Source: Martelella mediterranea DSM 17316
GTDB taxonomy: Bacteria; Pseudomonadota; Alphaproteobacteria; Rhizobiales; Rhizobiaceae
NCBI RefSeq assembly: GCF_002043005.1
Contig: NZ_CP020330.1
Location: forward strand, 1,561,001-1,625,000
DNA length: 64,000 nt
Direction: 5' to 3'
Part shown: positions 61,025-62,394 of the stretch, piece after piece
How the letters are laid out: each line of letters starts with the position of its first letter
How positions within the stretch are numbered: position 1 is the stretch's first letter
Position numbers and translations under genes: made by a program
Notes under the pieces: generated by a model
Seen by the model: the letters and a program-made list of their open reading frames with translations, nothing else
What the model was told of the DNA's origin: nothing
The model's database searches: none

Positions 61025-61134
61025 GCGTCATCCTCGGGCTTGACCCGAGGATCCGGGCAGCCGCGCACGAACCGGAAAATACCCTTATGAATAACGGCCG
61101 ACTCACTATGGATGCTCGGATCAAGCCCGAGCAT
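61025..61134. repeat. REP doublet, copy C, interrupted by the IS110 element
   Basis: Left arm 61025-61054; right arm 61110-61134, which stops at CCCGAGCAT where other copies continue GACA or GACG. The missing end, GACACAGG, is found at 62284 on the far side of the IS110 element. The repeat was therefore complete before the insertion. Confidence 0.9.
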
Positions 61135-61152
61135 TGTTTGTCGGATCTGCGC

Positions 61153-61158
61153 TATTGT
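61153..61158 (+). promoter_or_regulatory. -10 element of the circle-junction promoter
   Basis: TATTGT at 61153-61158. In the integrated element, the bases 17 upstream (61130-61135) read AGCATT, a poor -35. If the right end (TTG, 62279-62281) is joined through AT to the left end (T, 61135), the same place reads TTGATT with exactly 17 bases to TATTGT. Confidence 0.65.
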
Positions 61159-61164
61159 TGTGAT

Positions 61165-61325
61165 GCAGCTGCGGGCCGTTGGCTTGCCCGCAGCTGCTGC
61201 AACAGCCGACCGTCCGAGCATTGGGTGGAACACCCGCTGTCATCAAGGTCACTGTTGCACCGAGCAACCGCTTGAAGAGTTGATTGGGCCGCTGATTGCC
61301 ACGCCCGCAAACAATCCCAAGCATG
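61165..61325 (+). ncRNA. IS110 bridge RNA with target- and donor-binding loops
   Basis: A 5' stem-loop pairs 61165-61176 with 61186-61197 (12 bp). The target-binding loop is closed by GCAACAG/CTGTTGC (61199-61205, 61252-61258) and GACC/GGTC (61208-61211, 61247-61250), with apical hairpin GGGTG-GAA-CACCC. It exposes CCGAGCAT (61214-61221), equal to the left target 61127-61134, and TGTCAT (61238-61243), complementary to right target ATGACA (62282-62287). The donor-binding loop, closed by GCTTG/CAAGC, exposes AGAGTTGAT (61276-61284), equal to the right end 62275-62283. It also exposes CAAACAAT (61308-61315), complementary to the left end 61133-61140. Confidence 0.9.
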
Positions 61326-61346
61326 CCTTGAAAGGATAGCATCGCC

Positions 61347-62282
61347 ATGGTCGTTTTGCATCACCCTCCGCACATCTGTCTTGGTTGCGACGTTGCAAAG
61401 GACACGATCGCCGTTTCCTGCGGCGGTCCGGCCACCGTCATCGCCAATCGCAGCAGGGATATTCGTCGCTTCCTGCGAAACTGCGAGGCAGATCTGGTCA
61501 TCTGCGAACCCACCGGCGGGTATGAAACCGTCCTGATCGAAGAGTGCCTGCGGCGCGGCCTTGCCGTTCACCGGGCCGATACGCGCAGGCTCAAGGCCTT
61601 CATTCGTTCGCGTGGACGGGTCGGCAAGAGCGATGCGATCGATGCCCGGGAAATGGTCGCCTATGGCATGGAACGCTGGGCAAGCCTGTCCCTGTGGCAG
61701 GCTGAAAACCCTGAAGAGGCAAGGCTCAAGGCCCTTGTGCGCCGCCGCGCCGATCTGGTCGCCATCAGGGTCGCCGAGCAAAACCGCGCCATGGCGCCGG
61801 GCGGACGTGAACTTGCCGTCACCTTCAAGGCCATGCTCGCTGCCATCAATCGCCAGATCGCGCTGCTCGACAAGGAAATCCGCATGCTCATGCGCAGCGA
61901 AGCCTTTGCAGCCAGGGCCAGCATCGCAATGGCGATGACCGGCATCGCGGAGACAACCGCCGCCGCCCTGATCGCCACAATGCCCGAACTCGGGACGCTG
62001 GATCGAAAGAAGGCGGCGGCGCTGGCCGGCCTGGCGCCGCACCCAAACGAGAGCGGCAACAAGATCGGTTACCGGAGAATGCGCGGCGGCAGACCCGTCA
62101 TGCGCACCATCCTGTTCATGCCGGCCATGCAGGCCGCCCGCGGAAGGGGCGAGTTCGCCGCCTTCTACAAGCGCCTTGTCGAAGCCGGCAAAAAGCCAAT
62201 CGTCGCGATCGCAGCAGTCATGCGAAAAATCGTCGTGACCCTCAATGCAAGGTTCACAGAGAAAGTCATCCAACAGAGTTGA
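61347..62282 (+). CDS. IS110-family recombinase (bridge-RNA-guided)
   Basis: A 311-residue, apparently intact recombinase. The RuvC-like DEDD domain has D15 (LGCDVAKDT), E54 (ICEPTGGYE), D96 and D99 (KSDAIDAREM). A coiled-coil stretch (about 118-185) follows. The C-terminal Tnp_IS110/IS116 domain has GIAETTAAALIATMPELGTL and the serine nucleophile S236 in HPNESGNKIGYRRMRGGRP. AAGGA lies ten bases before the ATG. The stop codon TGA shares its A with the core dinucleotide, and its last codons are the left-donor sequence. By family knowledge it cuts and joins DNA guided by the bridge RNA. Confidence 0.95.
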   Translation: MVVLHHPPHICLGCDVAKDTIAVSCGGPATVIANRSRDIRRFLRNCEADLVICEPTGGYETVLIEECLRRGLAVHRADTRRLKAFIRSRGRVGKSDAIDAREMVAYGMERWASLSLWQAENPEEARLKALVRRRADLVAIRVAEQNRAMAPGGRELAVTFKAMLAAINRQIALLDKEIRMLMRSEAFAARASIAMAMTGIAETTAAALIATMPELGTLDRKKAAALAGLAPHPNESGNKIGYRRMRGGRPVMRTILFMPAMQAARGRGEFAAFYKRLVEAGKKPIVAIAAVMRKIVVTLNARFTEKVIQQS

Positions 62283-62394
62283 TGACACAGGTGGGGGAGG
62301 TGAACGAGGATCAAAAACCTGAGGCCGTAGCTGGTCAACGGTCTGTGGGCTCGCCACGCGGCGCGCCCTTTTTTGCTGGGCGGTTGTTTGCCGG

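Follow-up and report, generated by a model that had tools for sequence, protein, structure and literature searches.

How does an insertion sequence come to lie in one family of chromosomal repeats, and could the choice be made by guides in its own non-coding leader? The locus that raises this question lies in Martelella mediterranea DSM 17316, in a stretch of 64,000 nucleotides (contig NZ_CP020330.1, forward strand) that was analysed at its full length and is called the window here. Within it, an element of 1151 bp (element A; 61133..62283, + strand) begins and ends with an AT core. An earlier note, made from the letters of this DNA, had read a complete bridge RNA in the leader of the element. 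Judged from its sequence, element A very probably belongs to the IS110 group of insertion sequences and is moved by recombination under the guidance of a bridge RNA.

Element A, its recombinase and its target

The boundaries of element A are common to ten copies in this genome, all of 1151 bp, 99-100% identical, with identical ends, and every one placed in a repeat. The genes on either side of the window copy presumably encode a ClpB-type chaperone and an M23-type peptidase. Its DEDD recombinase of 311 aa (61347..62282, +) has D15, E54, D96, D99 and S236 at the expected motifs. The protein matches the Pfam families PF02371 (Transposase_20; 1.9e-15) and PF01548 (DEDD_Tnp_IS110; 2.3e-9) and reaches 146.2 bits against NCBIfam NF033542, "IS110 family RNA-guided transposase", for which the cut-off is 140. 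Its closest solved relatives by sequence are IS621 (E 3.8e-22) and ISCro4. The E, D, D and S catalytic columns align with IS621; D15 falls outside that alignment, and we take its assignment from the motif. The earlier identification as an IS110 recombinase is thus borne out by Pfam, by NF033542 and by IS621 as best solved relative. A non-coding stretch of 212 bp separates the left core from the start codon and none follows on the right, which is the layout of the IS110 group; in the IS1111 group the long non-coding end lies downstream of the gene.

Could element A be a dead relic, its guides a record of past insertions? Three of the ten genome copies have a recombinase shortened by a stop at codon 239, as a relic might, but the window copy and six others keep the full frame, and identities of 99-100% suggest recent spread, so that this reading is improbable. 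The description of the element as intact stands for the window copy and fails for those three. The stop (element position 929) is common to L021, L028 and L030, which lie at three separate genomic places, and suggests that helper copies or gene conversion have spread it. Across the five variable sites compared in L021-L030, all four combinations occur in 8 of 10 site pairs (sites 43 and 1107, each seen in one copy, were left out), which gives the set a mosaic look. In this genome as a whole (G000) the IS110 family domain is matched 27 times, in frames of several lengths and at several scores. Partial matches to element A at 93-95% identity are present in M. mediterranea USBA-857. Among plasmid relatives, all 1547 matching records were below 60% identity, the best among those listed being 39.5%. 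A search of published papers found none on IS110 in Martelella, which is no proof of absence.

The target is one arm of a palindromic repeat, GGATGCTCGGATCAAGCCCGAGCAT (61110..61134, no strand assigned), whose inverted partner lies at 61026-61052. The pattern CCCGAGNATGAC has 67 matches in the genome against one for the reversed control pattern. A unique chromosomal target was considered and rejected, the target being a genome-wide family of palindromic repeats. In the corresponding gap of a related genome (G276) the repeat is uninterrupted, holds no element and has G at position 7.

The same repeat family is used by a second IS110 element, element B (L027, L031-L034), with five copies of 1142 bp, a CT core and a frame of 318 residues. 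Its target, CGTCATC-CT-CGGGC, lies on the opposite strand to that of element A, and its guides, read by eye, are also different (LTG GTCATCCT, RTG GCCCGAG). At L027 one copy of A adjoins one copy of B. The repeat was also sought around 12 further IS110 loci in this genome and was matched at four, once each.

Four guides in the leader

What in the leader corresponds to these sites? The left target guide (LTG), UCCGAGCAU (61213..61221, +), has C at its position 7 (61219) in the window copy and U in four sister copies. Compared letter by letter, CCGAGCAT (61214-61221) equals the left flank at 61127-61134; left target positions 1-7 read CCCGAGC (61126..61132, +) and run into the left core AT (61133..61134, +). 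The right target guide (RTG), UGUCAU (61238..61243, +), is in its DNA form TGTCAT the reverse complement of ATGACA (62282-62287), which closes with the right target GACA (62284..62287, +); the next base, C (61244), stands at the place of the IS621 handshake guide. The left donor guide (LDG), AGAGUUGAU (61276..61284, +), equals the right end of the element, AGAGTTGAT at 62275-62283. The right donor guide (RDG), CAAACAAU (61308..61315, +), in DNA letters CAAACAAT, is the reverse complement of the left end, ATTGTTTG (61133-61140), and is also followed by C (61316). The AT core lies inside each of the four guides. LTG and LDG match bottom strands, and RTG and RDG top strands, as in the IS621-type bridge RNA.

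The four matches that the earlier note had claimed, with their order, orientation and common AT core, are therefore all exact. It had also called the probability of such a coincidence very small, and none of 200,000 first-order Markov shuffles of 61143-61346 held all four strings; the single strings turned up in 1544, 7933, 122 and 953 of these shuffles, and two or more together in 92. With both strands counted, the LDG and RDG strings are found twice each in the 64 kb, once as guide and once as element end.

Fold of the leader RNA

The leader had been described as a 5' hairpin followed by two internal loops. The 5' hairpin, of 12 bp (61165..61197, +), has a z of -4.41, and position 61165, where the earlier note began its feature, is its exact first base. 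The target-binding stem-loop (61199..61258, +) carries compensatory stem changes; folded separately it has a z of -3.34 and forms an outer stem and a top hairpin. The donor-binding stem-loop (61270..61322, +) comes from the comparative fold and is weak by energy alone; as a separate module it also forms an outer stem and a top hairpin, with a z of -1.22 (27 of 200 shuffles equal or better). The minimum-energy fold of 61135-61346 that had been proposed as a check (z -2.83) contains the 5' hairpin, the remainder being mixed and the two loops not appearing as described. In the best single-sequence folds of the modules three guide bases pair across each loop (GCA/UGU and GUU/AAC), while in the donor-module centroid the three cross-loop guide pairs are open.

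A comparative fold of 19 lineages recovers this target stem and leaves the LTG and RTG columns unpaired in an internal loop; on the donor side RNAalifold pairs guide columns 154-156 with 205-207. The comparison and the pairing counts given below support a 5' hairpin and two stem-loops with internal loops; the single-sequence folds, with their stems and hairpins but also their cross-loop guide pairs, agree in part. The check on whether the guide bases lie in internal loops did not refute the reading: LTG and RTG do in the comparative fold, and three donor-guide columns are paired. Changes on both sides were seen in 7 of 27 predicted pairs, every one in the target stem. For the pairing counts, a structure drawn from the window copy and adjusted to the comparative fold was used. 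Paired cells made up 87.7% against 80.9% in shuffled alignments and 37-51% when the structure was slid, a control in which a structure from one member favours itself; the covariation score was 0.258 against 0.133 for shuffled. One of the five measures, further pair types, was not distinctive and was reached in 62 of 500 shuffles. The outer donor stem consists of four invariant pairs, a neutral finding that is no evidence for that stem. Compared with Rfam at gathering scores, the leader had no match.

Left guide and insertion site across lineages

If the leader guides insertion, does its left guide change with the site? At the levels of family, order and class, protein searches with strict cut-offs found relatives in 8 of 394, 8 of 397 and 2 of 385 genomes (this genome is included in all three counts, and the sets may overlap), and 29 loci came from scanning named genomes. 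Those with a readable leader were chosen, after the leaders had been seen. Fifty-six insertions were parsed, and 55 of them, in 21 guide lineages, were used, L132 being left out as its flank is cut by a contig end. Not counted were L070, L071, L072, L090 (the same element as L069), L095 and L145 (the same place as L087), nor were two left ends of USBA-857 without a locus and contig pieces with a right end only. Relatives at 29-38% protein identity (L101-L108, L111, L113-L116) and partial Phyllobacterium ends (L109, L110, L112) were outside the analysis. The LTG register of L094 was set by hand to end in AT, and in the five rows of G687, where the junction had two candidates, the first was used.

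Over LTG positions 1-7, 15 insertions fit their own flank completely (7 of 7), 31 fit it at 6 positions and 9 at 5. The lineage-mean match is 6.00 of 7 against 3.97 for permuted pairings (sd 0.26, maximum 5.06), and 0 of 20,000 permutations were as good; the 21 lineages and 55 insertions are not so many independent events, as lineages are related and some flanks look alike. Retargeted left guides in these lineages include TCCCGGAAT, TTCCGGGAT, TCTCGCGAT, GCGTAGGAT and GCGGAGGAT. Homologous copies at sites that do not match their LTG had been named as the observation that would speak against guidance; the flanks found match the LTG of their own copy and change with it. The flank of L140 was for a time taken as unusual, a suggestion rejected when the full flank proved ordinary. 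The Aquibium carbonis element (L069/L090) has the same LTG as the G177 element; its site has one mismatch to the LTG and one to the extra right-guide base, and by eye is unlike the palindromic repeat.

The other guides vary far less. GTCAT (RTG) and GAGTTG (LDG) were part of the search pattern, so that their constancy is partly built in; GTCAT is identical in every parsed row and so carries no covariation. The match of the RTG spans the core, GAC and one base more. This first RTG base past GTCAT fits the flank at 0.78 against 0.64 when guides are dealt out (30 of 5000 as good, 20 guide types). A long RTG was rejected, there being no excess match past that one base. The right half-target is ATGAC in nearly all rows with a right flank (ATAAC in L132). 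Donor guides and element ends are nearly fixed across lineages, as partly required by the search pattern. The guide changes seen across lineages thus lie in the left guide. Comparison with homologues, from which co-varying target guides and fixed donor guides had been expected, gives an LTG that follows its flank, an RTG with a single variable base, and donor guides whose near-constancy is in part a product of the search.

The AT core proposed for the element needs one qualification: at the left junction 52 insertions, the window copy included, have AT, and the remaining three of the 55 (L088, L091 and L131) have GT. In L088, L091 and L131 the right core is AT. The core bases of the LTG are other than AT in L088, L089 and L091, and in 4 of 55 insertions the LTG matches only one of the two core bases.

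Might the recombinase protein alone recognise the repeat, the guide-like strings being remnants or coincidence? A protein contact could explain the near-universal ATGAC half-target (ATAAC in L132 apart), and the protein does differ between many of the lineages that have different targets. Near-identical copies with one guide base changed, however, lie at different variants of the repeat. Between the leaders of G687 and G768 there are 6 differences in 207 positions, of which one falls in the LTG, and each LTG is the better fit to its own flank: L122 (G768) matches at 7 of 7, and the five G687 rows at 7, 7, 6, 6 and 6. The four ordered matches, absent from all 200,000 shuffles, also stand against recognition by protein alone, which is very improbable.

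Element ends and a proposed mechanism

On the preferred reading, of a bridge RNA that directs the recombinase, how would the element move? It would excise as a circle in which the right end, AGAGTTGAT, is joined to the left end, TGTTTG. The joined ends would assemble a promoter, TTGATT-17-TATTGT, that is absent from the linear form, and from this junction promoter an RNA of about 180 nt would be made. Its internal loop of LTG and RTG would pair with the chromosomal repeat CCCGAG(C/G)-AT-GAC, that of LDG and RDG would pair with the circle junction, and the recombinase would exchange strands at the common AT core. What the sequence itself shows of this scheme is the set of four matches, an LTG that covaries with its site, donor guides that hardly vary, a target stem, a palindromic repeat that serves as target and, in 16 of 21 lineages, the junction spacing.

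The right end (62275..62283, +) is densely used, with donor site, candidate -35 half, stop codon (62280-62282) and core overlapping. A TGA stop lies inside AGAGTTGAT or a variant of it at 18 of 19 loci, the exception being L093, which has no long frame ending there. The -10-like hexamer TATTGT (61153..61158, +) stands 17 bp from the -35-like TTGATT, which exists only at joined circle ends. TANNNT at the 17-bp junction spacing is found in 16 of 21 lineages (absent in L094, L118 and three G535 lineages), the TTGATT half having been supplied by the script from the common right end. The junction candidate has 8 of 12 consensus letters. No promoter-like site was found in the linear form by the rule of the tool, which would also miss the junction at 8 of 12.

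Position 7 of the left target guide

Can a single guide letter shift the choice of target? Six copies in this genome carry C at LTG position 7 and four carry U. Of the six C copies five lie at C sites, whereas the four U copies all lie at G sites (Fisher 0.048), and all four U7 copies thus mismatch their own flank at this position. The 67 uninterrupted sites with C at position 1 have 49 G, 16 C and 2 A at position 7; when T is allowed at position 1, the 50 listed of 87 have 18 C, 28 G, 2 A and 2 T. The preference of the C7 copies has a p of 0.004 on the first background and of 0.037 on the second. A preference of U7 copies for G sites was rejected as evidence, 4 of 4 being within chance (0.32 or 0.14). 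In USBA-857, as read from contig ends, copies with a C guide lie at C sites (6 of 6) and copies with a G guide at G sites (9 of 9; Fisher 2e-4); the one-group chances are 0.0018 (C) and 0.0054 (G), on the 100 of 135 sites listed (100 of 135 rows in the G222 tally). The single member of the G7 subfamily with a readable protein is 59% identical to the window protein across residues 2-166, so that the guide is a likely difference between the subfamilies, though not the sole one.

The link between position 7 and flank could also come from gene conversion, shared descent or the proteins of the subfamilies, with no choice made by the guide. The copies are mosaic, with all four combinations in 8 of 10 site pairs, and the LTG lies about 87 bp from the left flank, so that linkage would be kept. 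Some flanks are alike over the last 100 bases: 87 for L024/L028 (both U7), 75-86 for L157, L159, L160 and L087, 76 for L025/L026 and 67 for L135/L140. Many others have short stretches in common at a greater distance, which the inverted partner of the repeat would account for. Since several outer flanks are alike, the position-7 counts are not all independent, and the case for guide choice is weakened; the C7 bias in this genome is weak on one background (p 0.037), and the USBA-857 subfamilies differ in protein too. However, the first 85 bases of the elements agree at 81-85, closer than the look-alike flanks (75-92%), and because of this separate insertions into related repeats are favoured over copied segments. 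The USBA-857 split of 6 of 6 and 9 of 9 becomes 6 and 6 (2/924) or 3 and 6 (1/84) when look-alike flanks are counted once, by hand grouping and arithmetic. An origin of the link in conversion, descent or protein is on balance unlikely.

For guide choice, the bases that follow the core are also of interest. In IS621, once strands have been exchanged, the post-core bases of both 3' guides form pairs with position 7 of the other DNA; pairing with their own DNA hinders this (PMC11208158). In the present set C follows the core in the donor loop of all 56 rows and in the target loop of every row but L089, which has G. Position 7 of the donor is G. That of the target is likewise G in 18 of 21 lineages; it is A in G251 and C in the Martelella copies with a C guide, one of which lies at G. 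With C after the core in both loops and G at both positions 7, pairs with own and with foreign DNA would be alike in most lineages.

It is possible, and put forward here tentatively, that target choice evolves by single guide letters in living genomes, with position 7 as a pivot that is read twice and with the repeat shared between two cores. Position 7 would be read first by the LTG on the bottom strand, and a second time, after strand exchange, by the C that follows the donor guide, on the top strand. Two readings are proposed because the donor-loop C would pair at G sites and not at C sites. For C7 copies, C sites would satisfy the first reading. U7 copies would have abandoned that reading in favour of the more frequent G sites, at which the second is still able to pair, and in the G7 sister subfamily both would be satisfied.

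Comparison with known systems

Bridge RNAs are already under development as tools for genome rearrangement. To this the clade adds a natural experiment, in which near-identical elements that share a genome differ by one guide letter and their sites differ accordingly, and in which several species have a retargeted left guide and an unchanged right guide. This natural single-letter variation is the point of specialist interest; it makes testable whether position 7 is read by one guide or by two. The overlap of donor site, stop codon, core and promoter half bears on the shortening of such elements. The clade is also a source of natural AT-core recombinases, IS621 with non-CT cores being generally less efficient (PMC11208160).

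A bridge RNA in element A is to be expected, as one is predicted in 85.7% of IS110s (PMC11208160), and its sequence supports element A as a further IS110-group bridge-RNA element of an already known type. With IS621 of E. coli it has in common a DEDD/Ser recombinase of the IS110 group, a bridge RNA at the left end with a 5' hairpin and a target loop followed by a donor loop, the order and strand sense of the guides, a core inside all four of them and a target in palindromic repeats (PMC11208160, PMC11208158). The candidate promoter at the circle junction would be a further likeness. Similarity to the IS621 protein is weak. The core of element A is AT (GT at the left in three insertions), whereas that of IS621 is CT; element A is therefore not filed as an IS621 orthologue, CT being the mark of that orthologue group and not of the IS110 group. 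Element A has no non-coding right end, whereas the lengths given for IS621 (RE-LE 298 bp, LE 191 bp) imply one of about 107 bp (PMC11208160, PMC11208158). In most lineages of the clade cognate and non-cognate handshake pairs would be the same, unlike in the account given of IS621 (PMC11208158).

Insertion in repeats is likewise described for the IS110 elements ISRm19 of S. meliloti, ISPpu9, ISPpu10 and ISPa11, which lie in REP sequences (PMC1525189); these were reported in 2006, before guides were known, and are likened to element A by description, not by sequence. ISEc21 and ISMch6 (IS110) and the seekRNAs of IS1111/IS110 elements resemble element A in their upstream non-coding RNA and in their matches to both strands (PMC11187229). 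The seekRNA work reports one natural redirection through guide changes (PMC11187229). That redirection concerns one single-copy relative, whereas here the guide changes are found between sister copies within genomes and across several related lineages.
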